From the NCBI GenBank assembly GCA_943736015.1, contig OX031066.1:24040127-24104126 (forward strand): DNA of 64,000 nucleotides, read 5' to 3'. Source of the DNA: Tridacna crocea. Lineage: Eukaryota; Mollusca; Bivalvia; Cardiida; Cardiidae. The position numbers and the translations under genes are program-made. Positions 1 through 64,000 of the stretch are shown in pieces. The notes under the pieces were generated by a model. It saw nothing but the letters and a program-made list of their open reading frames with translations. It searched no databases and was not told where the DNA came from. Position 1 is the first letter of the stretch. Each line of letters starts with the position of its first letter.

Positions 1-91
1 GGTTACCAGCATTTTCTCCTTTTCCCACAATAATTTCTATAGCCTCTTTCTCTAGGTCGTCAAAAGTACTGACTGTGTGGTAATGGGTTGA
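1..91 (-). mobile_element. Family A MITE, right part cut by window edge
   Basis: The window opens at the palindrome axis (GGTTACC) of a minus-oriented family A copy. The second palindrome half and the short arm follow, ending in GGTAATGGGTTGA, a decayed TTAA end. Confidence 0.8.
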
Positions 92-184
92 CAAGTCTCG
101 GTTCATGCATGATCTTAGCATCCCATAAAAGCGATGTCAATTTTAGAGTTCTACTTTTCAAAAGAAATCGATTCACATCAACCT

Positions 185-475
185 GGCATCTGCAAAAGCT
201 TTAAATGTCCTAAGAAGAAGTTTAAACTTTTCCAAGCAACAAATTTTAGGCTCTTTCAAATTAAAAGCACCTTCAGACGACAATTTTGAAAGTGGTACAA
301 AGCATTTATTTTGGAAGGGAAGATTACTTGATGGATATGTTAGAAAGTGCTTGTGACCAGCATTTTGTCCTCCCTACCCCCCCCCCCCCCCCCCATGTTT
401 TCCAAAAGCTTCCCCCCCCCCACACACACACACCCACAGGATCGTTTTAAACCTTTGACTTTTTTTCAGGGTTTA
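185..475 (-). mobile_element. Degraded family A remnants with poly-C tracts
   Basis: At 185-225 there is a right-arm remnant (CATCTGCAAAAGCTTTAAAT). From 222 a minus-oriented copy shows the long arm (CTTCAGACGACAATTTTG) and a mutated palindrome half (GTGACCAGCATTTTGTCC). It is interrupted by cytosine runs near 369-392 and 411-420 and a short CA repeat. Confidence 0.6.
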
Positions 476-487
476 GGATAAAGAAGA

Positions 488-725
488 TTAAGCCTTTCCA
501 CACAATGACGACTTTTAACGAACCATAGGATGAAGCCTTTAGAAAACATTTTGGGAAAAGGAGGAAAATGCTGGTAACCAGCATTTTCTCTGTTTTCCAC
601 ATTGCTTTCTACATCATCAAAGAAAAACAGGGTCATTGGAGTCACGATAAAATTGTCGTCTGCAAATGCTTTAAGTTAGGACAGGTCTTAAATGTCTGAA
701 ATGTTTTCGTATGGCAAAGAGTTAA
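488..725 (+). mobile_element. Family A MITE
   Basis: Plus-oriented copy with TTAA at both ends, centre GGTAACC and the long-arm box TCGTCTGCAAATGCTTTAA. Its right TTAA (722-725) is also the left TTAA of the next copy. Confidence 0.85.
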
Positions 726-949
726 CTCATTACCAAACAACAAAACTTTAGGTTTGTCGAAATCGAAAGCATTTGCAGACGACAACATAAAAGTGATTGA
801 AAATTTGAAATTTGATTTGTGAGGAGTTGAAAACATTGTTGGAAAAGGAGAAAATGCTGGTTACCAGCATTTTCTCCTTTTCCTACAATGTTTCTAAAGG
901 CTTCTTTCTCAGGATCGTCAAAAGTAGGGATTGTGTGGTAATGGGTTAA
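722..949 (-). mobile_element. Family A MITE sharing a TTAA with its neighbour
   Basis: Minus-oriented copy with TTAA ends, centre GGTTACC and a nearly perfect palindrome. It is tail-to-tail with the copy at 488-725, with a single shared TTAA at the junction. Confidence 0.9.
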
Positions 950-1451
950 AACGTTTCACATTTCACACGACGTTTTTGTTTCGATGGAATTTGTAACTCG
1001 ATACGATACAGTAACTAGATATACGAGTGCCTCTTTTAATTCCTATGCCACTTTTTCCGATGATAATTGCCGTTGTGGACGGCATAGATCAAGATCAGAC
1101 TCCACAGAACACGCTGTCTGATCTTTGATTTATACTGCGTGCTTGTTAAGTAAAACCTCATAGGTAAAAAAGTTTATCTGAGTTTCAGTAGATTGTATTC
1201 TAATCTGCCGGAAAAGGTCGCTGAATAAAAGTGAAGGAAAATCGTGCCCTATATAGTTACGTGTGGTCATTAATTAAATCAGCAGACATTATTGTGTCAG
1301 CTTTTCAGTCGTGAATTCGATTTCATTGAATGTAAGTAAATTGTTGTTGAATTTTATATAAAAAAAATTTTGCTAAATATTTGCTACAAATCTGCCATCA
1401 TAATTATGTAAATTAGCTATGATCTTTGAAAATGACGGACTTCGGGTACCC
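950..1451. other. Intergenic stretch with a family B palindrome remnant
   Basis: No gene seen. Positions about 1060-1140 carry a decayed family B palindrome (GATCAAGATCAGACTCCAC with its inverted partner CTGTCTGATCTTTGAT). The rest is AT-rich and unassigned. Confidence 0.5.
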
Positions 1452-1680
1452 GCAAAAAAATTTCGACCCATGTCAGCATGCGCAGTCCGCGCAGGCTGAC
1501 ATGAGTCGAACTTTTTTTGCTATTTTTTAATTTTCTGCAAGTCAAAGGATCATTCTACCACCTGATTCAGTCGATTGTTACAATGGATTTTTTAAATGCA
1601 TGATCACGTGATGACTCACGTAGTTTAATGCATCACGGCGATGCATTAAATCCCTTTATGTCAGATCATCGCTCAAATAT
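1452..1680 (-). mobile_element. Family C MITE
   Basis: The core palindrome pairs CATGTCAGCATGCGCAGTCC with GCGCAGGCTGACATGAGTCG. The usual family C downstream block follows (CAAAGGATCATTCTACCACC), with a decayed terminal region GCATTAAATCCCTTT. The upstream terminus is not seen. Confidence 0.65.
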
Positions 1681-1949
1681 ATTTCATTTCTTAGCTTGCT
1701 GGGTACATTTTTAGTTAGCATTCTCCCTAAGAATCATGCAGATGGTGATAAGTGACTAGTCACAGAATTCATTGGTTTAACCCTCATTCCATCAGACTTG
1801 TTGAAAAACTTTCCCAAAACAAAGCATTCCCATTTTCTGACAGTGGTTACCATGGAAACTAAAAATCAAAATTTCACGGAAATTGGTCGAAAGTTGTCAG
1901 TCAAAAAATTGAAAAATGACACTTTTTAGGGTGGTTTTTGACAAATCAT

Positions 1950-3570
1950 TATTATTTAGATTATCTAAACTACTTCTTATATTACAAAAAGGACATGAGT
2001 AGTACTCAAAATTACTTTGTAAAATGGAAAATGTTACTTGCATTGTGTTGCATAGCAACATAAGTTTAGCCATAGAAACCAGTTTTTCAAACTTCCAATT
2101 TTGAACATTTTTAAACCAAATTATCTTCTAACAGCAAAAGTGCATATGAAAAATACATATAGTACCTAAACGAGCAACATCTGATTTCTCAAAGCCAACA
2201 ATAAAAAAACTCAAAATATCTATAATTTTTGTAACCATAGCAACAAAACTATTGACCCGTCAGTGATTTTGCAAAAAAGTGGCAATTTCAATGCAAATTA
2301 ATTCCCTTCTGCAAAGAGAAATATTTACAGTGTATTTACATATTAAATGATCCACATCTGTTCAACCAATAAAGAAAAAAAAAAGCTCTGCAACAATCCA
2401 AACATTAGTTACCATGGCAACCAAACTATCCAACAGTTTGCGACTTTAACAAAAATCAGCACATTCAAAGTAAACTACTGCCCATTTAGATAATCTATAC
2501 TACTACTTAAAAAATATGTTAAAAGGAGGACATGAGTAGTACTCGAAATTACATAGAAAAATAAAGAACATCACTTGCATTGTGTTGCATAGCAACATAA
2601 GTTTAGCCATAGAAACCAGTTTTTCAAACTTCCAATTTTGAACATTTTCAAACCAAATTATCTTCTAACAGCAAAGGTGCATATGAAAAATACATATAGT
2701 ACCTAAACGAGCAACATCTGATTTCTCAAAGCCAACAATAAAAAAACTCAAAATATCTATAATTTTTGTAACCATAGCAACAAAACTATTGACCCGTCAG
2801 TGATTTTGCAAAAAAGTGGCAATTTCAATGCAAATTAATTCCCTTCTGCAAAGAGAAATATTTACAGTGTATTTATGTATTAAATGATCTACAACTGTTC
2901 AACCAATAAAGACAAAATTAAGTTCTGCAACAATCCAAATATTAGTTACCATGGCAACCAAACTAACCAACAGTTCGCGATTTTAGCAAAAATCAGCACA
3001 TTCAAAGAAAACTACTGCCCTTTTAGATTATCTATACTACTTCTTAATATGTCAAAAGAACGGCATGAGTAGTACTCGAAATTACATGGGAAAATATAGA
3101 AAAATATAAAATGTCACTTGCATTGTGTTGCATAGCAACAAAAGTTTAGCCATAGAAACCAATTTTTCAAACTTCAAATTTTGAAGATTTTCAAGCCAAA
3201 TTATCTTCTGACAGCAAAGGTGCATATGAAAAATATATATAGTGCCTAAACGAGCAACATCTGATTTTTCACAGCCAACAATTAAAAAACTCAAGATGTT
3301 AATAATTGTTGTAACCGTGGCAACAAAACTATTGATCCATCAGTGTTTCTTCAAAAAAGTTGCAATTTTAGAGCAAATTATCTCCCTTCTGCTAGGAAAA
3401 ATATTTACAGTGTATTTACGTATTGAATGGATCCACATCTGTTCAACCAATACAGAAAAATCTAAGTTCTGCAACAATCCAAATATTAATTTCCATGGCA
3501 ACCAAACTATCCAACATTTTGCGATTTTAACAAAAATCAGCACATTGAAAGTAAACTACCGCCCATTAGC
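1950..3570. repeat. Three tandem copies of a ~540-bp repeat inside family H
   Basis: The marker CATTGTGTTGCATAGCAACA occurs at 2041, 2578 and 3121, giving periods of 537 and 543 bp. Other shared landmarks are CATGAGTAGTACTCGAAATT and CGAGCAACATCTGATTT. The third copy is the most diverged. Short ORFs across it are open only by chance. Confidence 0.85.
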
Positions 3571-7322: not shown

Positions 7323-7348
7323 TCAATCTCCGAGCAGAGTTGTCGTTC

Positions 7349-8242: not shown

Positions 8243-8439
8243 TTTGAAATTAGACTCTACAGATCTTGCAATCTGAACTTGGCATCGGTTGTCTAATTCT
8301 TTGTGAGAGATTCTGACAGAAAATGACTTAAAAGATTTGCCAGATAGATGCCTTGTAGCATCTAAAATTCAAAATTCATTCATTTAGCGGATAGAGGACT
8401 AACCTTTTACCACTCAATTCCGAATTTCATCAACCCTAA

Positions 8440-8782
8440 GGGGTGGGGGGGGGAAGAGAGGAAAGGGGCGAAGTCTTTTGGAAACCATGATTGTGGGAAA
8501 AGGAGAAAATACTATAGGAAACAGCATTTTCTCCGTTTCCTCCATTTTTTTTCTATCCCATCTGAGAAAAATTGCACCATTTGAGCTGCAATGAAATCGT
8601 CGCCTGCAAATGCTCACAGTTTTGAAAAAGTCTTTAATTTTGTCGCTTGGCACAGAGTAACCAGCATTTTCTTCTTTTCTCACAATGTTTTCATACGTAG
8701 AAAAAAATCCCTTTTCTTTTGCCGCCTGTAAAATGCTTTTAATTTGACAGGCGTTAGATTTTGTTGTCTGGTAGAGTGTTAA
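8440..8782 (+). mobile_element. Two decayed family A copies in tandem
   Basis: From about 8470 there is a mutated palindrome (ATTGTGGGAAAAGGAGAAAA, then CAGCATTTTCTCCGTTTCC) and a long arm (TCGTCGCCTGCAAATGCT) ending near 8655. A second partial copy resumes at AACCAGCATTTTCTTC and ends with TTAA at 8779-8782. A guanine run lies at about 8443-8453. Confidence 0.65.
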
Positions 8783-8992
8783 CCTTTTGACTGCTTATCG
8801 CGACTTCCAGACGTTTTGCGGACAGCGTAGATCAAGATCAGACTGCACAGAACGTGCAGTCTGATCTTGGATCTACGCTGTCCGATCTGGAGATTTTATA
8901 TTCCCTAAAACATACCTTTAAAACAACAATTTATGGATTTTTAATATCGAATTGAAAATTCCATTTTAGTTTTTTAGCAGGATAAGGGTTAA
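8779..8992 (+). mobile_element. Family B repeat with TTAA at both ends
   Basis: The best-defined family B copy. It runs from TTAACCTTTTGACTGC to GCAGGATAAGGGTTAA, so the ends are imperfect inverted repeats bounded by TTAA. The core palindrome pairs GTAGATCAAGATCAGACTGC with GCAGTCTGATCTTGGATCTA. Its left TTAA is shared with the preceding family A remnant. Confidence 0.75.
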
Positions 8993-9149: not shown

Positions 9150-9695
9150 AGAGTTGATTGATTGATTGTACGGTGTTTAACCCATTACCACACAATCCCT
9201 ACTTTTGACGCCCCTGAGAAAGAAGCCTTTTGAAAACACGCTGGGAAAAGGAGAAAATCCTGGTAACCAGCATTTTCTCCTTTTCCCACTGTGTTTTCTA
9301 CCCTTTCCAGAACAAATTTAAATTTTTCAGTCATCTTTATTTTATCGACTGCAACTGCTTTCAATTTGAACCAGTCTATAATTCTGCCATGTGGTAAAGA
9401 GTTAACGCTGTTTTCAACATTATTTCAGTTATATCGCCGCGGCCAGTGCATCCATCCATGCATTCCTGGTGTCTCTTTTACCAGTACTCGGCACAATTTT
9501 CTTTCAAAGTCACTGGCCGCTTTCAAAAATAACCATCGTCGAAGTAACGGTTATAGGTGGGAGAGGAATGAATCTTGTTGCTTTGACTATCATCGATCCT
9601 CGGCCAGAAATTGGCCGAGGCCAAGCCAGGGATCGAACCCACGAACCTCTGTTCTTGAGTCCTGCACGGTATCGAATGAGCTATCGGTGCTCGGC
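9150..9695 (-). mobile_element. tRNA-derived SINE-1 with nested family A MITE
   Basis: Read on the minus strand, the head (about 9690 down to 9610) looks like a tRNA, with an A-box-like TAGCTCATTCGATACCG and a B-box-like GGTTCGATCCC. A roughly 200-bp body and an ATCA-type tail at about 9155-9170 follow. The MITE at 9177-9405 splits the tail region: removing it and one TTAA restores the order seen in other SINE-1 copies. Confidence 0.8.
9177..9405 (+). mobile_element. Family A MITE inserted in SINE-1
   Basis: Plus-oriented, TTAA at 9177-9180 and 9402-9405. The flanks GTACGGTG and CGCTGTTTTCAACATTA are contiguous around one TTAA in the SINE-1 family, so the duplicated target is TTAA. Confidence 0.9.
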
Positions 9696-10197: not shown

Positions 10198-10428
10198 TAT
10201 AACCCTTAACCACATAATGACGACTTTTGACGACCCAGAGGTAGAAGCCCTTTGAAAACATTGTTGGAAAAGGAGAAAATGGTGTTTACCAGCATTTTTT
10301 CCTTTTCCCACAATGTTTTCTACCCTTTCCAAATCGAAGTTCGATTTACAGTCACATTTATTTTGTCGTCTGCAAATGCTTTCAATTTTGACTAGTAGAT
10401 ATAAATTTGTCGTTTGGTAGAGGGATAA
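10198..10428 (+). mobile_element. Family A MITE
   Basis: Plus-oriented copy with decayed ends (ATAACCC and GGGATAAT) and an off-type centre, GTTTACC. The short-arm text GACGACTTTTGACGACCC marks the subfamily also seen at 37409. Confidence 0.85.
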
Positions 10429-12305: not shown

Positions 12306-15300
12306 GTAACTACTCCTTATTCGACCCGAAACAGCCCTAGCTGATTTGAGGTCAGGGTAGATAAGATCTGAACATGCAGTCTGCCAATGAGTCTGTATTC
12401 ACCAACCATTCTTAACGCTTTACCAGACGACAATATTTTAGCTCTGTCTAAATTGAAAGCATTTGCAGACGACATTTCAGTGTGGCTCAAATGGTGCAAT
12501 TGTTAATTAATTAGGTCGAAAACATTGTGGGAAAAGGAGAAAATGCTGGTTACCAGCATTTTTTCCTTTTCCAACAATGTTTTCAAAAGGCTTCTTTTCC
12601 AGGGGCGTCAAAGGTAGGGACTGAGTGGTGATGGGGAACATTCATAGTCTTGTTCTTGAAAATTTTGTCAGTGTGAAAGTAACAGAACCTCTGATTGGCT
12701 AAACGACAGTCATGGTTTAGCCAATCAGAGGTTCTGTTATTTTCACAGTCAGGAAATTTTGAAGAATAAGACAAAGAACGTTCTTAGAATGGTTGGTGAA
12801 TACGACCCCTGATCGCATATCTACACCGTCTGCAAGTTTGATCGATCTACCTACCAATCAATCGATCAATCAATCGATCAATCAATCAATCGGTCAGTCA
12901 GTCAGTCAGTCAGTCAATCAGTCAGTCAGTCAGTCAGTCAGTCAGTCAGTCAGAATTGAAAAAAAGTTTTGGCATGGGTTGAAAATATTGTGGAAAAAAA
13001 GAGAGAATGCTAGATAACAGCATTAGGATTGTTTGGTAACGAGTTTATCGGTCAATTTTGCAGGGAACAATTAAGCCTAACATTTTCTCTGGTGACTGAA
13101 CGAAGAAAAAAGAAATGTGAGATTTACCACTTTGAAATGATATAAGCACCACCCACAAAGGATATCTAACACGTTGAAAAAAAATGTTTCAAGCAAAGTT
13201 ACGTCAAAAAACATACCCAACTTGTCAGTGGTCGATTTCCGTTGTTTGTCTACTCGGCTATAAATTATATCTGGTATTTGTGCTTGTCTGTCACAGTCGC
13301 AGTGGGAGACAGATAAATAAACAAGTAAGCCGTTCTCTGGAAAAAAGGGGCTTAATGAATGTCCTATATTGCATAATACATAATATCGGTTTACTTCAAA
13401 AACCTCGTAACTACAGCTTGTTTCAAGCTGTAGTTACGAGATTTTTGAAGTAAACCGACGATAATACGGAATCTATAATATCTATTTAGTCTGATAATTT
13501 ACACGGTATAGTTGTAAAACTGTCTTTTAACATGTTGAAAATTGAGTGATAGCCGAAAAAGTTTCGGCCCATGTCAGCCTGCGCGAACTGTGCCGGCTGA
13601 CATTGGCCGAAACTTCTTTTAACCCTTTCCAAAACAATCCCTGGTTTTTACGGGTCAGGAATTGAAGCCTTTTGAAAACATTGTGGGAAAAGGAGAAAAT
13701 GCTGGTAACCAGCATTTTCTCCTTTTCCCACAATGTTTTCTACCCTACCATATAGAAAAATAATCTTTTTAGCAACTGTTAATTTGTCATCTGCAAAATG
13801 CTTTCAATTTGGTATGGTCCAAAATTTGTCGTTTGGTAAAGAGATAAAAGATGCGTTTAGCCCCCTTTTCACAGAGCATGGCTAAAATTTTTTCCCACCC
13901 CTTCTTTCTACTTCAAAACAAATTTACCAGATTTATTGGACTCAAAAATTGTAAAGGAGGCCCTCCATTACGCTGCAATTCCGACAATAGGTTTACTATC
14001 AAAAGGTCTTGGGACCTGTATTGACCAACCATTCTTCAGTACGTTCAGTCCGGTTAAGATTTTCTGAATTTGAAAAGTAACGCAACTTCTGATTGGCTAA
14101 ACCAAATATTTTTTGTTGCCAGCGAGAGACTTTGATTTTTTTTGACAGGAATAATAAGGGCTTTCTGAAGCCTTGGCATTTTGTCTTGAGCTTTTATGAG
14201 CCGTATTTAAACGTTTTGTTATATATGTACTCTAAATACTATAGTAAACAAGACCATTATATTAAAAATGTCTTTGAAGATTTTTTTTTTACGAAGTTCA
14301 TCTCATTAAAACTTTCATCAATAGATTTTTTTATACAAGTCCATTTCATTAAAATTGTCTTCAGATGATTTTCTCATACAAGTGTATTTCATTAAGATTT
14401 TCTTTAGAAGATCTTTATACAAGTCCATTTCATTAGAATTGTCTTCAAAAGATATGTTATACAAGTCCATTTCATTAAAATTGTCTTCAGAAAATTTTTC
14501 ATACAAGTCTATTCCATAAATATTGCCTTCAAAAGATATTTATACACGTTCATTTCATTAAAATTGTCTTCAGAAGATTTTTGTACAATTCCATTCATTA
14601 GAATTGTCGTCAGAACATTTTTATACAAGTCCATTTCATTTAAGTTGTCTACAGATGGTAATTTATACCAGCCCATTTCATAAAAAAATGTCTTCAGAAG
14701 ATTTTTCATACAAGTCCATTTCATTAAAATTGTCCTCAGAAGATTTTTATACAAGTCCATTTCATTTAAATTGTCTTCAGAAGATTTTTACAACTTTTTT
14801 TCCCAACATTTTGAAGCCACGCGGTAGAAAATGGTGGAAGTAGAGACATATTACGAGGTATTGTAGTCTATGTTGAATGTTTAAGCCATTACCACACAAT
14901 CTCTACTTTTGACACCCCTGAGAAAGACACCTTTAGAAAACATTGTGGGAAAAGGAGAAAATGCTGGTTACCAGCATTTTCTCCTTTTCCCACAATGTTT
15001 TCTACCCTTCACAAAACACATTTCAAGTTTTCAGTTACTTTTATTTTGTCGTCTGCAAATGCTTTCAATTTGGACAAGTCTAAAATATTGTCGTCTGGTA
15101 GTGAGTTAAAGTAAAGTTTGGCGGTTCTTTTTATCTGCGCTGCCATACAACTGAACTTCTAATGCTTATCATAAAGCTTGGTCTGTTTCTAATTTTTGAA
15201 GATAAATAAGTTTACTTGCATGTTAACACTACTTGCACTAACTTGCGTTTGCAATTTTATCATCTAGATCTATTAATGATGTATTTTGTTGATACTGTGA

Positions 15301-18300
15301 CTTTGTCATTTTAGGATAGGACATCCAAAGGCGGATTCCTGTGACATCGTTTTTAATCGCCGAAAAACGTACGGATTCGGCTATGACTTGGGCAATTCGT
15401 AATCGATCGGTCGATAAATGCTGGTCTCCTCATCGATTACATATTATTCGAGTCTTAACCGAAACCGTACGACGAAAGACGATGTTACGCGAATTCAGCT
15501 GGGGAGCCCTATCCTTAACAAATTTTTGTGGCGTCGGAATGTTTTCTTGACTTGTTCCTAATCAAGAATAAAACATAAACGTTCATTTGTAATGTTTTTC
15601 AAGTGTTTTTTTTTGTGTTGAAAATTCCAAACGCAGTATGCTTTGCCGTCAGTTTGGTTTGTAAAATTTGTCTTCCTTAAAAGAATCATTTTACCCCTTG
15701 ACTGCTGAATAACTGAGACATATTTTAAGATAAGCAGGTTAAATATAATAGCAAAAAGTATCGACCATGTCACTGCGCAGGCTGACATGGGTTGAAACTT
15801 TTTGCCTTAGGTCAATTTTGTGCATTTCAAAGGATCAGTCTACCTCGTGATTCAGTCGGTTGGTAGATAAAATGGATTTTATGCTGTATCAATAATCATG
15901 TATGGACTGCTTGGTAGAGTGCATCCCGAAGTTGCATTAAACCGCCTGTCGCCATAGTATGGCTCAAATGAAACCGGCGGTTTCAAACTGTATGAGAGAC
16001 CTTAATATGGCAACTCTAGGCTACTTGGACAGAATGTCTCGCTGTTTGACAAACAATGTAGATTGATAATCAGTCTACACGTTTTGGGCAGTTGTCATAT
16101 TAACCCTTTCCCAAACAAGCCCTTGTTTTTACGTGTCTGCAGTACAAGTCTTTTGAAAACACTGTGGGTAAAGGAGTAATTGCTCGTAAAGAGAAATTTC
16201 TCCTTTTCCCACAGTGTTTTCTACCGATTTGGAGAACTGTCTGCCATTTTCATCGAATTTGAATTTCTGGTCTGTGCAAAAGTATTATATAAGTATAAAT
16301 CCTTATATATCAACTCATAGGAAATTTTATGCCATGTTGCGCTAGAAGCGTTAGGATGGTCATGTTTTGATTTACACTCTCTACAGAAGAACCTAATGTC
16401 GTCCTCAGCGTTTCGATCATATATGTGACACTCAGGGGGTTTTTTTATCCTTTTTTTTACAAAGCTCGTGCATTATTAATACGTTTTAGAGAGCAAACTT
16501 TGAAAAAAGAAAAAAACAAAATACACACCCTGACACACATAAGTACCTGCGGTAAACAGTTTGGGTCACAACAGAGTGCTAAAAAATGTCACAGTCTGTT
16601 ATGTTGCAGTGCAATGTCATGTTATTTTACAGTCGTCAAAAAAATCGATAAAACGGTATGTTTTACTTTCTGTATTTGACAGCTACCACCAGCAGGTGCC
16701 CCTTTAACATTCGAACCACAAATTAACAGTTGGACTAACGCCGAAACAGAAGCAGGTAACTGGAACTTTTGATCAATCAAACTTGTTTTGTCGATATTTA
16801 TTTATGAGGTTCTATATCAATAATTCAGTATAGATACAATGGTAGATTTTTAGAGATAAAAAAGTAATTTCATGTTTAAAATTAAGATTATGTGAATGAG
16901 TTCTTGTTTAACCCTTTCCCAAACAATCCCTGGTTTTTACGGGTCAGGAATAGAAGCCTTTTGAAAACATTGTGGGAAAAGGAGAAAATGCTGGTAACCA
17001 GCATTTTCTCCTTTTCCCACAATGTTTTCTGCCCTATCATATAGAAAAATCATCTTTTTAGCAACTGTTAATTTGTCATCTGCAAAATCCTTTCAATTTA
17101 GTCTGGTCCAAAAGTTGCTGTTTGGGAAAGGGTTAACGTTTTACGGTGTTTCAAAATTACCCCTGTGATATCACGGAGGGCAGTGCATCTGTTCAAGGTT
17201 TCTTGGAATTTGTCTCACCTATACTTCAAAACTAACTTTTTCTAAGCTACAAGCTCCTTTTCCATAAAAGCAACACAGATTGTGCTAAGGTGTAAAGGGG
17301 GGGTAGAGTTTCGTTATATTGTTGCACTGAATACTATCAATCCTCGAAACGAGTTTGACAAAATTGAAATCACGTAACCTGGGTCCGTATTCACCAATCA
17401 TTCTTAAGAACATTCTTGGTCTTATTCTTCAGAATTTTGTCAGTGTGAAAGTAACAGAACTTCTGATTTAGCCAATCAGACGTTCTGTTACTTTCACAGT
17501 CAGAAAATCTTGAAGAATGAGACAGAGAATTTTCTTAAGAATGCCTGGTGAATACAGATCCCGACTATCTACCCGTCTATGTAACTGACTTGACTACGAG
17601 TACCGCGCTTTGCTAATAAGAATGATATTACACTTACAATTTACTTTTTCAGAACGTCAAGCAGTCGATATGTATACAACACTGAAGCGTAGCCAATCCT
17701 TCTACGAGCCAACACCCGCTCGAATGACGTCAATTTCCGTTAACAATCCACCTGCTAGAGATACATATACACTTTACGGTAACCGGAAACCGTCGTATGC
17801 CATCAATCCTACCGGCCTGTATCAACAAGGGCATTTCCCATATCACCAACCTGGAGGGGCAGGACCAAGGGAAGACATGGTCATCAAGGGCTTGTCGAAA
17901 CAGTACGACGGGTAAGATTTTGGTATATAAAATATCTCCCTTACTCAATCAAAGCCGCTGGTCTTTTGGCCCTAATGAGAGGGCCATTTTTAGGCCAAAT
18001 ATGATACTAGCAGTACTTTTAAGTCGCACGTTTTTTGAGGGGTGACTGTTACCCATAGAACCAATTAAATATTCAAAATGTTTTCAAATCCTTTTCAATG
18101 GCCTCTAGAGACGATCAATAATTCATAAAGGTTCCTCAAACCGTCAGACACGCTGGCTGAAAACCGTAGAACAAGCTGGCTGAAAACCGTCGGACACACT
18201 GGCTAAAAACCGTCGGACACCCTGTCTGAAAACCGTCGGATACGCTGGCTGAAAACAGTCGGATGTGCTGGCTGAAATCTGTCGGACGTGCTGGCTGAAA

Positions 18301-20921: not shown

Positions 20922-21148
20922 TTAACCTTTCCCGAACGACAAACTTTTGGACTAGACCAAATTGAAAGCATTTGCAGACGACAATTCAACTCTTGCTGAA
21001 AAGATGATTTCTGTCAATGATAGGGTAGAAAACATTGTAGGAAAAGGAGAAAATGCTGGTAACCAGCATTTTCTCCTTTTCCCACAATGTTTTCATAAGG
21101 CTACTATTCCAGACCCGTAAAAACCAGGGATTGTTTGGGAAAGGGTTA
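20922..21148 (-). mobile_element. Family A MITE
   Basis: Minus-oriented, TTAA ends, but centre GGTAACC, the reverse of the usual minus state. Followed directly by another copy. Confidence 0.9.
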
Positions 21149-21354
21149 ATTAAAAGCCTTTACCACATAGGAGGTAGCCGTTTGAAAACATTGTGGGAAA
21201 AGGAGAAAATGCTGATAACCTGCATTTTTTCCTTTTTCCACAAGTTTTTCTATCCCTTCAAATACAATTTCATCTAACTTGACTAGATTTTTGTCTTCTG
21301 CAAATGCTCTGGAATTGGAATTGTCTAAAACTCTGTCGTTTGCTGAATTGTTAA
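21149..21354 (+). mobile_element. Family A MITE, diverged
   Basis: Plus-oriented. The junction with the previous copy reads TTAATTAA, so here each element keeps its own TTAA. Palindrome centre GATAACCTGC is mutated. Confidence 0.8.
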
Positions 21355-36271: not shown

Positions 36272-36289
36272 AGTTGATTTCACCGGAAA

Positions 36290-41278: not shown

Positions 41279-41508
41279 TTAACCCTTTATCACACGACAA
41301 GATTTTAGACCTGTCCGAATTGAAAGCTCTTGCTGATGACAGTTCCAAATGTGGCTCATATAAAATGAATTTTCTTTGAAAGGGTAGAAAATATTGTAGG
41401 AAAAGGAGAAAATGCTGGTCATCAGCATTTTCTCCTTTTCCCACAATGTTTTCAAAAGCCTTCTCTTTCAGGGGTGTTAAAATTCGTCATTGTGTAGTAT
41501 AGGGTCAA
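41279..41508 (-). mobile_element. Family A MITE, CATC-centre variant
   Basis: Minus-oriented. The centre is GCTGGTCATCAGC, as in 59030. The right end TTAA has become TCAA. A family C end fragment (CGTTAAGCCCCTTTTTCACA) follows at 41516. Confidence 0.85.
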
Positions 41509-41769
41509 CAGACACGTTAAGCCCCTTTTTCACAGACCATAGCTAAAATTATTCTGAAAGGCTGTTTTCCTGTTTTTCACTTCAAACAGTTCCTCATTAC
41601 ATGACGTAAGTTGTTTTGATGAGTCTAAAATAAGATAGCGTGGCAATCGATCAACCGCTAACCCGCTGTACAAGTTACATAAAACTTCTAAATCGGCGGT
41701 AGAAATTCTTATAATACTATTTTAATTCATTTGAGAAAAGGAAAAACATGAAAAAATATGCTCTATATG

Positions 41770-41895
41770 GATAAGATATCACTGTATAGGACAGTGTAAA
41801 TCAAAGATCAAACTGCACGTTCTGTGCAGTCTGGTCTTGATCTACACTGTTCGCAAAAGGTCAGTTTGTCGCGCTTGGTAGCTTAAGGGTTTGGT
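41770..41895 (+). mobile_element. Family B repeat, shorter form
   Basis: GGACAGTGTAAATCAAAGAT, CACGTTCTGTGCAGTCTGG and CTTGATCTACACTGTTCGC, ending in TAGCTTAAGGG. Confidence 0.7.
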
Positions 41896-42495: not shown

Positions 42496-42732
42496 TTAAC
42501 CCATTACCAAACGACAATATTTTAGACTGGTCCAAATTGAAATCATTTGCAGACGACAAGATAAAAGTGACTGAAAATTTGAAATTTGTTTTGTGAAGGG
42601 TAGAAGGGTAGAAAACATTGTGGGAAAAGGAGAAAATGCTGGTTACCAGCATTTTCTCTTTTTCCCACAATGTTTTCTAAAGGCTTCTTTCTCAGGGGTG
42701 TCAAAAGTAGGGATAGTGTGGTAATGGGTTAA
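42496..42732 (-). mobile_element. Family A MITE
   Basis: Minus-oriented, TTAA ends, centre GGTTACC. A 9-bp tandem duplication (GAAGGGTAGAAGGGTAGAAA) sits just before the stem. Confidence 0.95.
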
Positions 42733-43225: not shown

Positions 43226-43452
43226 TCTTAAAAACTTTACCAAACAAACCCTGTTTTCTATGAGATAGAAGCCTTTTGAAAACATTGTGAGAAAAAGGAG
43301 AAATTGGTGGTAACAAGCATATTCTCCTTTTCCCACAATGTTTTCTACCCTGCTGAAAACAAATGTCAATTTTTGAGTTGAGTTTATTATGTGGTCTGCA
43401 AGTGCTTTGAATTTGGACCAGTCTAAAATATTCTCGTTTGGTTACAGGGCCT
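43226..43452 (+). mobile_element. Family A MITE, decayed ends
   Basis: Plus-oriented. The stem is partly mismatched (GAGAAATTGGTGGTAACAAG). Long-arm box GTGGTCTGCAAGTGCTTTG. Confidence 0.8.
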
Positions 43453-43539
43453 GTTTAACTTAAAGACAACTGGTGTACGTAGTTCAGGTGCGTTGATTTC
43501 ATTGCAGTATCTGGAGTAAGATTAATCTTAAGGCTATTA

Positions 43540-43735
43540 GGGGCGATCCAAGGACCTTTTGCGGACAGTGTAGATCAAAATCAGACTGCACAGAACGTGC
43601 AGTCTGATCTTGGATCTACACTATCCGATTAGGAATTATTAATTCTCCCTAAAAATACTTTTGAAATAGCAAAATTTTGGTATCTACCAAAGGCTTGAAA
43701 AGTGTATCTCATTTATGTAGCAGGGCACACAAACC
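43540..43735 (+). mobile_element. Family B repeat
   Basis: GGACAGTGTAGATCAAAATC with GCAGTCTGATCTTGGATCTA, then the 3' block with TTTGAAATAGC and GTAGCAGGGC. Confidence 0.75.
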
Positions 43736-43739
43736 GGGG

Positions 43740-43980
43740 TTTTGACCCTGCCTACACAATCTCGCGTTTTGACGACCTTAATTAATGCACAGGTCTACTA
43801 AATATATAGTGGAGGAAAAAGGAGAAAATGCCTGTAAATTTGGCTCCCTGAATGGTGAAATTTGTCATTGATATGGTAGAAAACACTGGGAACCTGCATT
43901 TCCTTCCCTTTCCGTGATGTTTACAAAAGCCTCATTTTTTTGGTCAAAGTCATGAAAATACGGGTTATTTACCCTTATCC
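43740..43980. mobile_element. Heavily decayed family A pair
   Basis: GTGGAGGAAAAAGGAGAAAA and later GGTAGAAAACACTGGGAACC with TTTCCGTGATGTTTACAAAA show two partial stems about 90 bp apart. Confidence 0.55.
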
Positions 43981-44069
43981 TGCGAAATAAGTGAAATGCA
44001 ACTTTTAAGTAGACAGTACAACCCAAAGTTTTGTCTTTCAAAAGGTTATTTTTCAGAGAAAAATATGTC

Positions 44070-44180
44070 CTTATCGGACAGTGTAGATCAGAGATCAGAC
44101 TGTACGTCCTGTTCAATCTGATCTTGATCTATATCGACCGCTAAAGGTCAGTGAGTCGGGTTTAGTAGCCTACGGGTTGA
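44070..44180 (+). mobile_element. Family B repeat, shorter form
   Basis: CGGACAGTGTAGATCAGAGA, GACTGTACGTCC and CAATCTGATCTTGATCTATA. Confidence 0.7.
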
Positions 44181-44439
44181 GGTAAAGAAGTTATCGTATT
44201 CATGGCAGGATAAAGTGCTCAATTTAAGATTTACTATCCATACAAAAAGACATGCGCAATAGGATGCGCGCGAACATTTGTAATATACAACGTTAAATGC
44301 CTCACATGAGAATGTTCGGTGCAAGAATAATTGGCTAACCGCAGTACATACAGTATTAGGTAACACCACACCTCATCCTGTTTTATTCAGGACATACAAT
44401 GTACATGTACTTTAGACCGCACCTGCTAAGCGCGACTCG

Positions 44440-44635
44440 CTGTCCTTTGCAGACAGTGTAGATCAAGATCAGTTTGATCTTGGATCTACAATGTCCGATG
44501 AGGAGGTATGTAATTCTTCAAAAATGATTTTTGAAATAGTATCATTGGGGTTAATGCTATAGGCTTTAAAGTTTCATTTCGTCGGTTTACTTCGAAAACT
44601 AATCTATTTAGCAGGAAAGGGTTAGGGTACTTCGA
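44440..44635 (+). mobile_element. Family B repeat, loop deleted
   Basis: GACAGTGTAGATCAAGATCA runs straight into GTTTGATCTTGGATCTACAA: the CTGCAC..GTGCAG middle is gone. The 3' block contains ATTTAGCAGGAAAGGGTTAG. Confidence 0.7.
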
Positions 44636-46611: not shown

Positions 46612-46831
46612 TTAACCCTTCCCCAAACGACAACTTTTACACACTTCCAAAACCGAGATCATCCGCGGACGATGTAGTCTGAATTGAGCTGTAGGTCTCT
46701 GATAGGGTAGAAAACATTGTGGGAAAAGGAGAAAATGCTGGTTACCAGCATTTTCTCCTTTTCCCACAATGTTTTCAAAGGCTTTCTCTCCAAGGGTCGT
46801 GAAAACCAGGGATTGCTTGGTAAAGGGTTAA
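46612..46831 (-). mobile_element. Family A MITE
   Basis: Minus-oriented, TTAA ends, perfect stem, centre GGTTACC; long arm diverged. Confidence 0.9.
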
Positions 46832-47589: not shown

Positions 47590-48112
47590 GTACTACACAT
47601 TCCAAAGATGAACGACCTTGAGAAAGAAGGTTTTTAAAACATCGCGAAAAGAGAAGAACACACTGGTAACCAGCATTTTGTCCCTTTCCCACTATGTTTT
47701 CTACCATTCTACAGACAATATTTAAAGTTTTTTTTAATCATATCTATAATATTTTTTTTCTCCTATACAATCACAGATAGCTCAGTGAGAAAGCAAAACA
47801 CACTGGTAACCAGCATTTTGTCCCTTTCCCACTAATTTTTTGTACCATTCTACAGACAATGTTTAAGTTTTTTTTTTAATCATATACATGTATGTAATAT
47901 TTTTCTCTCCTACACAATCACAGATAGCTCATTGGGAAAGAAGACTTTTAAAAAAATCGTTAGAAAAGGAGAAAATGCTGGTAACCAGCATTTTCTCCTT
48001 TTTCCACGATGTTTTCTACAAATTTCAGTTCTTGAATCAAATATAAGTTGTCGTCTGCAACTGCTTTCAGTTTCGAAAAGTCTAAGATTTTGTCGTTTGG
48101 TAGGGAATTACG
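47590..48112 (+). mobile_element. Family A with internal 140-bp tandem duplication
   Basis: CACTGGTAACCAGCATTTTG occurs at 47661 and 47801, with about 140 bp repeated. A complete stem (GTTAGAAAAGGAGAAAATGC, centre GGTAACC) and long arm follow from 47940 to the end GGTAGGGAATTAC. Confidence 0.8.
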
Positions 48113-49498: not shown

Positions 49499-49728
49499 TT
49501 AACTCTTTACCACACAATCTCTACTTTTAACGACCCTGAAAAAAGGAGCCTTCTGAAAACACTGTGGTAAAAGAAGAAAATGCTGGTCACCAGCATTTTC
49601 TTCTTTTTCCACAATGTTTTCTGTCTTACCTTGAACAAATTTTGCCATTTGGATCACCTTTAATTTGTCGTCTGCAAATGCTTTGAATTTGGACTGGTCT
49701 AAAATTTTGTTGTTTGGTTAAGAGTTAA
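49499..49728 (+). mobile_element. Family A MITE
   Basis: Plus-oriented, TTAA ends, centre GGTCACC. Confidence 0.9.
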
Positions 49729-51086: not shown

Positions 51087-51135
51087 TTAACTCTTTACTC
51101 GATGCTTTCAATTTTGTCGTTTGGTAAAGAGTTAA
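51087..51135 (+). mobile_element. 49-bp minimal family A derivative
   Basis: TTAACTCTTTACTCGATGC joins directly to TTTCAATTTTGTCGTTTGG and TAAAGAGTTAA. It keeps both TTAA termini and has lost the palindrome and almost all of both arms. Confidence 0.85.
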
Positions 51136-51369
51136 CCCTTTCCCATACGGCAAATTTTGGACGAGACTAAATTGAAAGCATTTTGCAGATGACAAATTAA
51201 CTGTTGCTAAAAAGATAATTTTTCTATATGATAGGGTAGAAAACAGTGTGGGAAAAGGAGAAAATGCTGGTTACCAACATTTTCTCCTTTTCCCACAATG
51301 TTTTCAAAAGGTTTCTATTCATGACAAAAAAACCATGTAAAAACCAGGGACTGTTTGGGAAAGGGTTAA
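51132..51369 (-). mobile_element. Family A MITE
   Basis: Minus-oriented, TTAA shared on both sides. A short insertion with an adenine run precedes GTAAAAACCAGGGAC. Confidence 0.95.
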
Positions 51370-51594
51370 CCCATTACCACACAATTCCTACGTCTGACTC
51401 CCCTAAGAAAGAAGCCTTTTGAAAATACTGTGGGAAAAGGAGAAAATGCTGGTAACCAGCATTTTCTCCTTTTCCCACAGCGTTTTCTACCCTTCCCAGA
51501 ACAAATTTTTATCTTTTAGTCACCTTTATTTTGTCGTCTGCAAATGCTTTCAATTTGGACCAGTCTAAAATTTTCTCGTGTGGTAAAGAGTTAA
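51366..51594 (+). mobile_element. Family A MITE
   Basis: Plus-oriented, TTAA shared on both sides, centre GGTAACC; stem carries matched changes (ACTGTGGG / CCCACAGCG). Confidence 0.95.
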
Positions 51595-51890
51595 AATACC
51601 CTCAGCATTTTATTCATCTTCGCAAGCCAAGATGGTGTAAAGGGGGGTAATAACCAGCATGCAATAGAGGGTGCATCGCAGGAATCTCGAAATCGGGCTC
51701 GATCAGCCAAGGTAAGATCCACGTAGTGATCGTAACCTTGGCTCGCGAAGATGCAATTTATTCTGTTCCCAATTCGTTTTTCTTTTCTTCGATAAACAAA
51801 TCCCAGCATTTGAGCCGTACCTAGTTTGTCGTATGCAAATGCTTTCAATTTGGACTCGTCTTAAAATTTGTCGCCTGGTTATTGAGTTAA
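51591..51890 (+). mobile_element. Family A-like element with a different inner inverted repeat
   Basis: TTAA ends and a normal long arm (TTGTCGTATGCAAATGCTTT). The palindrome position instead holds ATCTTCGCAAGCCAAG paired with CTTGGCTCGCGAAGAT, plus the inner hairpin CCAAGGTAAGATC / GATCGTAACCTTGG. Confidence 0.7.
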
Positions 51891-52118
51891 TTCGTTACCA
51901 AATGATAAAATTTTAGACTTGTCCAAATTGAAAGCATTTGCAGACAACAAAATAAATGTGGTTCACAATTGAAATTTTTGAAAGGAAGGTTAGAAAACAT
52001 TGTGGATAATAAGAAAAATGCTGGTTATCAGCATTTTCTCCTTTTGTCCACAATGTTTTCGAAAGATTTCTCCTTTCTAGGAATCGTTAAAATTTAGGAT
52101 TGTGTGGTACAGAGTTAA
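51887..52118 (-). mobile_element. Family A MITE
   Basis: Minus-oriented, TTAA ends, fifth element in an uninterrupted chain from 51087. Confidence 0.9.
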
Positions 52119-52261: not shown

Positions 52262-52795
52262 GTAAATTGTATTTATTGCCGTTTTCAACATGATTTCAGT
52301 TATAAAACGGCGGCCAGTGCACCTATCCATGCTTTCCTTTAACCCTTTCCCAAACAATCCCTGGTTTTTACGTGTCAGGAATAGAAGCCTTTTGAAAACA
52401 TTGTGGGAAAAGGAGAAAATGCTGGTAACCAGCATTTTCTCCTTTTCCCACAATGTTTTCTACCCAACCATATAGAAAAATCATCTTTTTAGCAACTGTT
52501 AATTTGTCATCTGCAAAATGCTTTCAATTTGGTCTGGTCCAAAATTTGCCGTTTGGGAAAGGGTTAATCTCGTTTGCCAGTGCCCCGAACAATTTTCTTT
52601 CCAAGCCACTGGCTGCTTTACCCATATAACTATCACCGAAACATTGGTCAGCACTTCGAGAGGTATGAATCTTGTCTCAATGACCATTATCAGTCCTCGG
52701 AATGAAATTGGCCGAGCCACGGATCGAACCCTCGAAGCTCTGGTCTCGAGTCGTGCACGCTACCGAACGAGCTACCGGGGCTCGGCTTTTTTTTT
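52262..52795 (-). mobile_element. SINE-1 interrupted by a family A MITE
   Basis: The 3' part 52262-52338 (TTTTCAACATGATTTCAGTT, CGGCCAGTGCACC) and the 5' part 52568-52795 (AAGCCACTGGCTGC; head with GAGCTACCGGGGCTCGGC) flank the MITE. Confidence 0.85.
52339..52567 (+). mobile_element. Family A MITE nested in SINE-1
   Basis: Plus-oriented, TTAA both ends, perfect stem, centre GGTAACC. Removing it with one TTAA rejoins the SINE body. Confidence 0.95.
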
Positions 52796-54145: not shown

Positions 54146-54370
54146 TTAACCCATTACCACATAATCCCTACTTATGACGACTCTGAGAAAGAAGGCTTTA
54201 GAAAACATTGTGGGAAAAGAAGAAAATGCTGGTAACCGGCATTTTCTCCTTTTCTCACAATGTTGTCTACTCTATGTAAAAAATACACCATTTGATCCAC
54301 ACTGAAATTGTCGTCCGCAAATGCTTTGAATTTGGACAAGACTACATTTTGTCGTCAGTTAACGAGTTAA
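54146..54370 (+). mobile_element. Family A MITE
   Basis: Plus-oriented, TTAA ends, centre GGTAACC. Confidence 0.9.
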
Positions 54371-54545
54371 AACTCGTCATTACAAGACAGCCAATTGTTG
54401 ACAGACATTTGCACACGACACCTAAAATGTGTCTCAACTGACGGGATTCGTCTTTCAAACGTAAGGAAATACTGTGAAAAAACGACAATACGTTGGTAAC
54501 CAGTACTTCTCTCAACATGGTGTTGTAAATTTACATAATCTTCGT
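54367..54545 (-). mobile_element. Family A MITE, strongly decayed
   Basis: Long-arm trace GACAGACATTTGCACACGAC and stem trace TACGTTGGTAACCAGTACTT. Confidence 0.55.
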
Positions 54546-54989
54546 TTTGGAAGACGCCAACTCTTTACTCAACAATCTGCTAATTTAATCCTTTACCAAA
54601 GAATACCTGGTTTTTACGACCCTAAAATAGAAGCATTTTGAAAACATTGTGGGAAAAGGAGAAAATGCTGGCAACCAGCATTTCCCCCTATTCCCACAAT
54701 GTTTTCTACCCTGCTGGAAGTTTTGGAAGAGGCCAACCCTTTACTCAACAATCTCCTCATTCAATCCTTTACCAAACAGTTCCTGGTTTTTACGAACCTA
54801 AAATAGAAGCCTTTTGAAAACTTTGTGGGAAAGGGAGAAAATGCTGGTTACCAGCATTTTCTCCTTTTCCCACATTATTTTCAACCCTGCTGGAAACAAA
54901 TTTCAATTTTTAAATTCCATTTATTTTGTCGTCTACAAGTGCTTTCAATTTGGACCAGCCGAATATTTTTTCGTTTGGTAAAGAATTAA
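54545..54989 (+). mobile_element. Family A with 176-bp partial tandem duplication
   Basis: TTTTGGAAGACGCCAAC and TTTTGGAAGAGGCCAAC mark two copies 176 bp apart. Each has a short arm and palindrome (centres GGCAACC and GGTTACC); only the second has the long arm and the TTAA at 54986-54989. Confidence 0.85.
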
Positions 54990-55368: not shown

Positions 55369-55599
55369 GTAACCCTTTCCCAAACAATCCCTGGTTTTTA
55401 CAGCCCTGAGATAGAAGCTTTTCGAAAACATTGTGGGAAAAGGAGAAAATGCTGGTTACCAGCATTTTCTCCTTTTCCCACATTTTTTTTCCTACCCTAC
55501 TGTATACTAATTTCAATTTTTGAGTTATGTTTATTATGTTGTCTGCAAGTGCTTTCAATTTGATCTACTCTAAAACTTTGTCGTTCGGTAAAGAGTTAA
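55369..55599 (+). mobile_element. Family A MITE
   Basis: Plus-oriented; left end GTAA, right TTAA; centre GGTTACC; a run of T follows the stem. Confidence 0.9.
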
Positions 55600-58120: not shown

Positions 58121-58348
58121 TTAATCCTTTCCCAAACGGCAAATTTTGGACTAGACCAAATTGAAAGCATTTTGCAGGTGACAAATAAACAGTTACTAAA
58201 AAGATGATTTTTCTATATGATAGGATAGAAAACATTGTGGGAAAAGGAGGAAATGCTGGTTACCAGCATTTTCTCCTTTCCCACAATGTTTTCAAAAGGC
58301 TTCTATTCCTGACCCGTAAAAACCAGGGATTGTTTGTGAAAGGGTTAA
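58121..58348 (-). mobile_element. Family A MITE
   Basis: Minus-oriented, TTAA ends, centre GGTTACC. Confidence 0.9.
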
Positions 58349-60045: not shown

Positions 60046-60139
60046 GACCAGATTTCTTTCAAATGGTACCGTTTTACACTTTTCCTGCTCAATAAGTAAA
60101 ATTAAACTTTCAAGCTAGTAGTGAAAACAAACTTTTTTT

Positions 60140-60275
60140 TTTGGGGGGGGGGGGGGATATTTTCTTATCGGACAACTTAGATCCAAGATCAGACCACGTT
60201 TTGTGCAGTTTGATTTTGATCAACATCGCCCGCAGAAAGTCATCGAGTCGCTCTTTGCAGGTTGAGGGTTAATAA
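60140..60275 (+). mobile_element. Family B repeat, diverged
   Basis: GACAACTTAGATCCAAGATC with GTGCAGTTTGATTTTGATCA; a guanine run precedes it at 60144-60157. Confidence 0.65.
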
Positions 60276-60918: not shown

Positions 60919-61131
60919 TTAACTCTTCACCAAATGACAAAATTGAAAGCGTTTCCAGACAAAAAAAAAATAAATGTGACTCAAAAATTGAAATTTGTTT
61001 CCAGCACAGTCGAAAACATTGTGGGAAAAGAAAATGCTGGTTACCAGCATTTTCTCCTTTTCCCACAATATTTTCAAAAGGCATTTTTTCTCAGGGTCGT
61101 TAAAAGTCAGGATTGTGTGGTAAAGAGTTAA
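60919..61131 (-). mobile_element. Family A MITE
   Basis: Minus-oriented, TTAA ends; 10 bases of the left stem (AGGAG region) are lost while the right is intact, centre GGTTACC. Confidence 0.9.
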
Positions 61132-61234
61132 AACAGGCATAATTGTGAATGTGAAGACATAATGGTGAAGGTAAGAGTTTAGTGGTGATACAGATGCATA
61201 CACTTTGATTATTCGGCCTAACTTACAACCCTGA

Positions 61235-63050: not shown

Positions 63051-63132
63051 ATCATCGGTTTATTTCGAAAACCTCGTAATTACAGCTTGTCACAAGCTGT
63101 AGTTACGAGTTTTTCGAAGTAAGCCGACGATA
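63051..63132. repeat. Family F palindrome
   Basis: ATCATCGGTTTATTTCGAAA, CTCGTAATTACAGCTTGTC and the inverted partner to GCCGACGATAT. Confidence 0.85.
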
Positions 63133-63146
63133 TACTGCTGAATAAG

Positions 63147-63374
63147 TTAACCCTTTACCTGATATGCCAACTTGAGGCTCATCCATTTCAGCAGCAATTA
63201 AAGGTATGATATCAAAAATATGGACAAATGAGGATACAAATATCTGATTGAGTGGAAAACATTGTGGGAAAAGGAGAAATTGCTCGTAACGAGCAATTTC
63301 TCCTTTTCCCACAATGTTTTCAAAAGCTTCTGTTGTTGATACGTCAAAATGCGTATCTATGGAGAAAGGGTTAA
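63147..63374 (-). mobile_element. Family A relative, GCTCG-core subfamily
   Basis: TTAA at both ends; perfect stem with GGAGAAATTGCTCGTAACGA at its centre. Arms resemble 24006 rather than typical family A. Confidence 0.85.
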
Positions 63375-63434
63375 ATGAAGCCTTTAAAAGTGAAAGCCCA
63401 AAGGTTGCTAATTCAAAGTTATTTTTGGAGGGAG

Positions 63435-63520
63435 AATATCTCCTTGCCGGACAGAGTGGATCAAAGATCAGACTTTACGTTCTGTGCAGTCTAATCTTGA
63501 TCCATACTCTTCGAAAAAGG
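63435..63520. repeat. Family B core palindrome
   Basis: GAGTGGATCAAAGATCAGAC / GTGCAGTCTAATCTTGATCC. Confidence 0.75.
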
Positions 63521-63702
63521 CCCATGTTGTATATTGTCCTTCCTGACCATATCAAATCAAAATACCCAGATTTAGATAATCATTTAACACAAAATACGAA
63601 ACGTTTAATAACTCACTATGATCTACATCAAACACTGGTTGATATATCCAAAGGAAACTTTCATAATCTGTCTCCAAGTACCGCCAACAATGCGTCACGT
63701 GG
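63521..63702 (+). pseudogene. Inner fragment of a DUF229 sulfatase-like protein
   Basis: The open frame reads PMLYIVLPDHIKSKYPD, then NTKRLITHYDLHQTLVDI and ends ...NNASRG, where MITE sequence takes over and gives a stop. The pattern (LP, YP, N-x2-RL-x-T-x2-DLH-x-TL-x-DI, then SRG) is the region of DUF229 / sulfatase-like proteins after the catalytic part. It probably comes from the same gene as 61782-62146, but the middle is missing. The upstream end is a family B palindrome. Confidence 0.6.
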
Positions 63703-63847
63703 TTGAAATTTGTTTAGTGAAGAGTAGAAAACATTGTGGGAAAAGAGAAAATGCTGGTAACCAGCATTTTCTCCTTTTCCCACAATGTTTTCTCAAGGCT
63801 TCTTTCTCAGGGTCATCAAAAGTAGGGATTGTGTTGTAATGGGTTAA
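63703..63847 (-). mobile_element. Family A MITE, right piece of a split copy
   Basis: It begins TTGAAATTTGTTTAGTGAAG, where the left piece at 61315 left off, and continues through the stem (centre GGTAACC) and short arm to TTAA at 63844-63847. Confidence 0.85.
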
Positions 63848-63909
63848 AAAAACATCATGCAATGTCCTCAATAGGAGACATCTGTCATAACTATCTTTTG
63901 TTCCAATTA

Positions 63910-64000
63910 GCAAACGACAGTATTTTGACATCCCCAGGGAAAACAGGCTTTGAATATGAAAACATTGTGCTAAAAGCAGAAAAAAATGTTGTAGCCAGGT
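63910..64000 (-). mobile_element. Family A fragment cut by window edge
   Basis: GCAAACGACAGTATTTTGAC, then GAAAACATTGTGCTAAAAGC and a decayed centre at the last bases. Confidence 0.6.

Follow-up and report, generated by a model that had tools for sequence, protein, structure and literature searches.

The window analysed here is a stretch of 64,000 nt from Tridacna crocea (assembly GCA_943736015.1, contig OX031066.1, positions 24,040,127-24,104,126 of the forward strand), which contains many repeats and has the overall character of eukaryotic DNA. A family of TTAA-flanked repeats with a long internal palindrome (F1) was searched for using a profile built from 16 hand-picked window copies. Non-overlapping matches with a score of at least 20 were counted as pieces, and matches running from model position 10 or lower to position 220 or higher of 230 were taken as near full length. 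The window contained 76 F1 pieces, 41 of them near full length, covering 14,241 bp (22.3%). The initial annotation, made from the letters alone, had estimated that about 45 copies were near-complete and 20 partial, together making up about a fifth of the window; this observation was confirmed. The F1 element of about 229 bp consists of TTAA, a left arm of 55 bp, a palindrome, and a right arm of 107 bp (TTAA counted in both arms), in agreement with the one asymmetric long arm noted earlier. The 61 copies with a score of at least 60 were aligned, and the 15 weaker pieces were excluded. The consensus palindrome is perfect and 67 bp long, comprising two 33-bp arms and one centre base. All 33 pairs are intact in 10 of the 61 aligned copies, and of the 56 copies in which 30 or more pairs could be compared, 32 have no more than two mismatches; a perfect palindrome therefore describes the consensus and these ten copies, not most single copies. 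The terminal sequence CCCTTTCCCAAAC with up to two mismatches was found 46 times in the window, versus 1.8 times on average in 100 shuffled versions, so the ends proposed earlier were recovered as well. The copies are short, uniform in length, numerous, bounded by inverted ends, and without coding capacity, which are the characteristics of miniature inverted-repeat transposable elements (MITEs). In all its main points, the earlier description was right. Pfam analysis of 10 of the 68 open frames of at least 90 amino acids revealed two host-type genes only (RING-NHL and DUF229). The feature coordinates are listed in Table 1.

Within F1, conservation is highest in the palindrome and exceeds that of the ends. 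Mean column identity reached 0.934 in the palindrome, 0.786 elsewhere, and 0.84 and 0.85 at the two ends (outermost 13 bp). In most pairs of copies, the flanking arms differ by 20-40% and the palindromes by about 9%. Private changes in three tight clusters (picked post hoc, CpG removed) numbered 12/1058 in the palindrome versus 84/2306 in the flanks (p = 2e-5); the corresponding values were 14/763 versus 69/1669 in the 13-copy group B (p = 0.004) and 9/714 versus 35/1528 in the whole of group A, the youngest group of 11 copies (p = 0.14). Among the palindrome pair cells (61 copies, 33 pairs), 1691 were consensus and 168 were changed on one side, while the double changes included 25 still complementary (15 distinct kinds) and 8 non-complementary. 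The expected number of complementary double changes was 4.2 (standard deviation 2.2, maximum 14) in 2000 permutations of the right arms; these ignore the relatedness of the copies, so the weight rests on the independent kinds and on the controls with the partner slid by 1-3, which gave 3-5 such changes. When three divergent-subfamily copies and two that aligned poorly were excluded, 12 double changes were observed versus 3.2 expected (maximum 9). The covariation of the F1 arms is real, but modest in bulk. The clearest case is the copy at 63147-63374, a perfect 67-bp palindrome in which two pairs are off consensus and both are compensated; the copy at 24006 carries the same two compensated pairs and two more.

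These data bear on the view that the palindrome is a relic of an inverted duplication at the origin of the element, that its conservation is apparent and due to the youth of the family, and that it has no role. Most palindrome changes are indeed one-sided decay, as expected of a relic; however, the difference between flanks and palindromes given above and the joint change of both arms in diverged subfamilies speak against this view, which is already disfavoured and seems very improbable.

A tandem duplication that arose after insertion (176-bp units at 54544-54719 and 54720-54895) provided a neutral control, in which 9/67 palindrome positions and 11/109 other positions differ. In this pair, the palindrome decayed about as fast as its flanks after insertion, so the constraint probably acts through mobilisation. 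The units of a second tandem duplication (about 25,100-25,513) are almost identical and hence uninformative. Alternatively, mutation could keep the arms alike, one arm being rewritten from the other when the polymerase switches templates within the hairpin or when arms or copies undergo gene conversion. Template switching has been described to homogenise inverted-repeat arms and invert spacers (PMC8604942) and to yield compensated double changes in stems (PMC8794818). Consistent with this, transversion pairs, which have no G-T wobble intermediate, account for 9 of the 15 distinct compensated kinds; the centre base (A in 43 copies, T in 9, G in 5, and C in 4) reads T in nine copies, a flip of A that template switching could produce; and several unrelated hairpin repeat families share the window. 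However, 168 of the 201 changed pairs are one-sided, no compensated pair occurs in group A (11 copies), the one informative post-insertion duplication showed no protection of the palindrome, and a free centre base also fits a plain loop position. Mutational homogenisation is accordingly considered rather unlikely.

A third alternative is that the palindrome acts as an RNA hairpin, giving small or structured RNAs from read-through transcripts that aid the element or shield it from silencing. The RNA fold of the copy at 16908-17136 was far better than that of shuffles (z = -10.4), and MITE-derived microRNAs have been published for other families. The DNA fold was equally strong (z = -11.1), and strong folding of both RNA and DNA follows from any perfect palindrome. 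One-sided changes leaving G-U in the top-strand RNA were not in excess (38 versus 57 for the other strand), so an RNA wobble signature was rejected, and no Rfam family matched the window. An RNA role is regarded as improbable.

A scan for palindromes (arms of at least 16, at most one mismatch, and a loop of at most 8) detected 55 in the window, 38 inside F1 and 17 outside it, and none in two mononucleotide shuffles. Four of the 17 belong to F3, a second family with TTAA/CCC ends, for which a profile search of the window found 20 pieces totalling 2,678 bp, with several short, weak matches among them. The F3 layout comprises a left arm of 41 bp, a palindrome of 64 bp, and a right arm of 109 bp, with the right end ...AAGGG-TTAA and the consensus left end TTAACCC. 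Conservation was 0.86 in the palindrome versus 0.72 and 0.74 outside it, and 9 complementary double changes were observed versus 3.4 expected (standard deviation 1.7, p = 0.006). The distance from the palindrome to the right end is nearly equal in both families (107 bp in F1 and 109 bp in F3). Homology between F1 and F3 was not detected: the right arms scored 29 versus 23.0 (standard deviation 4.1) for shuffled sequences (p = 0.10), and the p values were 0.29 for left arms, 0.91 for palindromes, and 1.0 for right ends. A remote common origin of the two families is possible. Their shared plan hints that the hairpin itself matters for spread. No matches to the F1 palindrome core were found in the collections of viral contigs and genome contigs, none to the F1 right-arm block in the viral contigs, no F1 relatives in phages or plasmids, and no viral match to the F3 20-base core. 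The latter recurred in 25 stretches of bacterial records, which were taken by their titles as chance or terminator-like palindromes.

The initial annotation had placed TTAA at the flanks as a target duplication. When the best-matching tetranucleotide no more than 3 bases from the expected position was scored, a slightly generous criterion, TTAA was exact at 73 of 107 F1 ends, had one mismatch at 28, and was worse at 6, confirming the flanks. Both ends were exact in 25 of 40 two-ended copies. To find insert-free sites, the joined flanks of two-ended copies were searched within the window; junction-spanning matches were obtained for 13 copies, some of them trivial self-matches, and five sites were inspected. 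The site of the copy at 9177-9405 has four insert-free paralogues, reading TTAA at 60380 and 45181 and TCAA at 27334 and 47417. The copy at 12412-12638, one outer end of which is missing, lies in another hairpin repeat, whose insert-free paralogues read CCATTC-TTAA-GA at 17380, 17558, 46882, and 47067. Paralogues of the sites at 52339, 13619, and 41279 carry other letters instead of TTAA, which neither proves nor excludes a TTAA target. A single TTAA is common to two neighbouring copies at five places (722, 19329, 37409, 51366, and 51887), as expected if TTAA is the target and not part of the element. TTAA thus looks like a duplicated target, as in piggyBac elements. Outside TTAA, a mild preference was observed for T before it (20/40) and A after it (20/40). 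Preferential insertion into earlier copies was unsupported, since random insertion into 355 free TTAA sites gave 10.4 (standard deviation 2.8) shared TTAA in simulation versus the 5 observed, with F1-F3 junctions and decayed TTAA uncounted.

The ends of the repeats were labelled CCCTTTCCC-type and CCCATTACC-type. In group A, the two ends match at 13/13 bp (CCCTTTCCCAAAC) and both begin with CCCT. Five group B copies have the ends CCCATTACCACAC and CTCATTACCAAAC, matching at 11/13 positions, and the same two changes are present at both ends; such parallel change of the ends suggests that the transposase recognising them diverged as well. Among F1 copies with the respective end, left ends begin with CCC in 30/46 and CCCT in 21/46, and right ends with CTC in 19/39 (the commonest), CCC in 13/39, CTCT in 14/39, and CCCT in 11/39. 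The ends of piggyBac elements are described as 12-19 bp long with CC[C/T]T and a TTAA target (PMC2872659), and a survey of piggyBac elements in animals found CCCTT to be the commonest 5' motif (PMC10813416). Ends of this kind were found in group A and, less clearly, across all copies; CCCT-type ends together with TTAA fit piggyBac. Related transposase ends are known elsewhere, since a full-length coral piggyBac has the ends CCCTTTCCCGTCC (PMC2872659). The elements might instead belong to Kolobok or to a new TTAA-inserting superfamily, as TTAA insertion alone cannot separate piggyBac from Kolobok and no transposase was seen. Kolobok ends are of the form 5'-RR...YY-3' (PMC9587614), whereas those of F1 are CC/CT...GG/AG. 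Kolobok membership was rejected, with CCC at 30/46 left ends and AGAG or AGGG at right ends, and this alternative is hardly likely. The 13-bp CCCT inverted ends, TTAA, and unlikeness to Kolobok support the piggyBac-type transposition proposed by the initial annotation, by a putative transposase.

From these results, we consider it probable, though far from assured, that F1 copies are piggyBac-mobilised MITEs with a hairpin core under selection. They would be moved in trans by a putative piggyBac-superfamily transposase recognising CCCTTTCCC-type ends and would insert at TTAA with TTAA duplication (insertion at TTAA was seen at two sites). The palindrome of about 65 bp, which can form a hairpin and has a short arm to its left and a long one to its right, would be constrained during mobilisation: source elements keeping matching arms would leave more copies, and an inserted copy would then decay freely. 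The constraint may fall on arm matching more than on one particular sequence, because diverged subfamilies changed both arms together and the F3 palindrome is unrelated but occupies the same place. Its likeliest role would be that of a DNA-level cis structure raising excision or copy number, for which the candidates are a cruciform or hairpin and a longer site of two-fold symmetry bound by the transposase and its partners. The earlier suggestion that the palindrome may be the functional part is strengthened by the covariation, the conservation above the ends, and the second family.

Several observations weigh against this interpretation. The right-end consensus is CTCT and not CCCT in most copies, and no transposase was seen in the window, where one Trichoplusia ni piggyBac protein, typed in as the query, gave no tblastn match at E <= 10. 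Exact TTAA at both ends is limited to the 25 copies given above, and insert-free site evidence to two of the five sites inspected. The deficit of private changes in the palindrome is non-significant in group A, and the tight clusters were picked post hoc. Changed pairs are mostly one-sided, the arm permutation takes no account of kinship between copies, and arm mismatch within a copy (9.3% of pairs) is only modestly below that between copies (11.8%). The post-insertion duplication control is a single pair.

The closest published kind to F1 are the MITEs of the coral Acropora named CMITEs (PMC2872659). They share with F1 the TTAA target duplication, CCCTTTCCC-type ends (CMITE families I and IV), asymmetric ends in some families, the reuse as a target of TTAA between repeats, and stronger conservation between families in the internal region than at the ends; a full-length coral piggyBac, AmiPB1 (CCCTTTCCCGTCC), has ends identical to those of one CMITE family (PMC2872659). 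They differ in length, about 100 bp versus about 229 bp in F1, and the passages of that report drawn on here describe no perfect palindrome or arm covariation (PMC2872659). The window contained no significant match to the 60-bp CMITE internal consensus (the best spanned 11 bp, E = 0.61), so F1 was not assigned to the CMITEs; this consensus folds into stems of 3-5 bp only, unlike the F1 palindrome. The piggyBac and piggyBat elements resemble F1 in TTAA, the CCCTT 5' motif, short ends, and asymmetric subterminal regions (PMC7351741, PMC11707139, PMC10813416). In T. ni piggyBac and Myotis piggyBat, cysteine-rich domains of the transposase bind palindromes near one end; these are 14-19 bp long and imperfect, whereas the F1 palindrome is 67 bp long and central (PMC7351741, PMC11707139). 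By analogy, a long palindromic binding site in F1 is conceivable. Kolobok and T2-MITEs share the TTAA target and long-lived MITE families but have RR...YY ends (AGGRR in T2) versus CCC...GGG in F1 (PMC9587614, PMC6004289).

F1 is of an ordinary kind, piggyBac-type MITEs; unusual are the long covarying palindrome, its fixed place, and its occurrence in two families. Foldback-type hairpin MITEs are hairpin-forming and non-coding, and their inverted repeat constitutes the element ends, whereas the F1 palindrome is separate, internal, and placed between unequal arms. A TTAA MITE with a perfect internal palindrome was not found in a literature search, the scope of which left out subscription journals and Repbase. 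The new features here are palindrome conservation above the ends, arm covariation, post-insertion decay, and a second family of the same layout. Tentatively, they may define a piggyBac MITE class in which selection maintains a hairpin of about 65 bp as an amplification module, located about 107-109 bp from the right end and free in sequence if its arms match. The very high density of some MITE families is an open question, and an internal region that is conserved better than the ends was already a puzzle in the coral CMITEs (PMC2872659). In the window, the conserved part lends itself to testing, being a long palindrome whose arms covary in both families of one layout; if the proposed interpretation is true, it is DNA secondary structure, and not the ends alone, that determines which MITEs burst.

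Table 1. Coordinates of repeats and other features in the window. F1 without qualification denotes a near full-length copy; "profile" denotes identification by profile search.
Feature	Position	Strand	Basis or remark
F1	488..725	+	right TTAA shared with 722..949 copy
F1, group B	722..949	-	profile
F1	8400..8658	+	profile
F1 fragment	8657-8782		end TTAA is left TTAA of F3 copy 8779..8992
F1	9177..9405	+	insert-free paralogues 27334, 45181, 47417, 60380
F1	10200..10428	+	profile
F1, outermost left-end bases missing, in another hairpin repeat	12412..12635	-	profile; insert-free paralogues
F1, group A, perfect palindrome	13619..13847	+	profile
F1, group B, perfect palindrome, centre T	14881..15109	+	profile
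F1 partial, three compensated pairs	16100..16275	+	profile
F1, group A, perfect palindrome	16908..17136	+	profile; used for folding
F1, two compensated palindrome pairs	19106..19330	+	profile
F1	19336..19555	-	profile
F1, group A, centre T	20923..21149	-	profile
F1 partial, divergent subfamily, four compensated pairs, 32/33 pairs intact	24006..24136	+	profile
F1, group A, perfect palindrome	26269..26497	-	profile
F1, palindrome deletion	27772..27986	-	profile
F1, group A	32197..32426	+	profile
F1, group A, perfect palindrome	32723..32951	+	profile
F1	35574..35802	-	profile
F1	35813..36022	-	profile
F1	36782..37014	+	profile
F1, group A	37184..37412	-	TTAA 37409 shared with 37409..37636
F1, one compensated palindrome pair	37409..37636	+	profile
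F1, group A	37698..37926	+	profile
F1, group B, perfect palindrome	38125..38354	+	profile
F1	39700..39931	+	profile
F1, group B, perfect palindrome, centre T	40863..41094	+	profile
F1	41279..41508	-	profile
F1, group B	42496..42732	-	profile
F1	43231..43445	+	profile
F1, perfect palindrome, divergent right arm	46612..46831	-	profile
F1, one compensated palindrome pair	47905..48107	+	profile
F1, one compensated palindrome pair	49499..49728	+	profile
F1, group A	51132..51369	-	TTAA 51366 shared with 51366..51594
F1	51366..51594	+	profile
F1	51888..52118	-	TTAA 51887 shared with F1 fragment 51753-51888
F1, group A, perfect palindrome	52339..52567	+	four site paralogues without TTAA at insertion point
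F1	54146..54370	+	profile
Tandem duplication unit 1 (176 bp): flank, left arm, palindrome; neutral control	54544..54719	+	
Tandem duplication unit 2, with left part of copy 54762-54989	54720..54895	+	
F1	54762..54989	+	profile
F1	55370..55599	+	profile
F1, group A	58121..58348	-	profile
F1	60920..61131	-	profile
F1, divergent subfamily, perfect 67-bp palindrome, two compensated pairs	63147..63374	-	profile
F3 complete: left arm 8779-8819, palindrome 8820-8883, right arm 8884-8992	8779..8992	+	TTAA both ends
F3	36066..36268	+	profile
F3 partial	36270..36404	-	profile
F3	41654..41892	-	profile
F3	43522..43727	+	profile
F3	43971..44181	-	profile
F3, palindrome deletion	44411..44599	+	profile
F3	60076..60272	-	profile
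F3 partial	63365..63524	-	profile
RING-NHL open frame, single long exon	33760-35526	+	588 codons; RING and NHL matches (Pfam)
DUF229 exon	63290-63706	+	Pfam; between F1 copies 63147-63374 and 63702-63847
Tandem array	6672-7323		unit 32 bp
Tandem array	14248-14790		unit 41 bp
Tandem array	18138-18855		unit 23 bp
Tandem array	22474-23067		unit 60 (182) bp
Tandem arrays	61318-61770 and 62180-62578		unit 37 bp

Apart from one isolated case, the 13 remaining palindromes outside F1 fall into about four additional hairpin families. One hairpin repeat (palindrome centres 12705, 17467, 26565, and 46971) has GATTGGCTAAAC stems and CCATTCTTAAGAA borders and is the insertion target of an F1 copy. Two families have palindrome centres at 13419, 21969, and 63088 and at 10809, 22124, and 22443, respectively; the hairpins at 21969 and 22124 are about 155 bp apart and may be parts of a larger element with the borders CATGCTCTG...AAAAGGGG. 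Another hairpin family (25059 and 48547) has stems with AGAATCGTCTC. Several other repeats of the window presumably resemble those of bivalve molluscs. The DUF229 exon is flanked by two F1 copies, so the repeats occupy introns or flanks of a gene.

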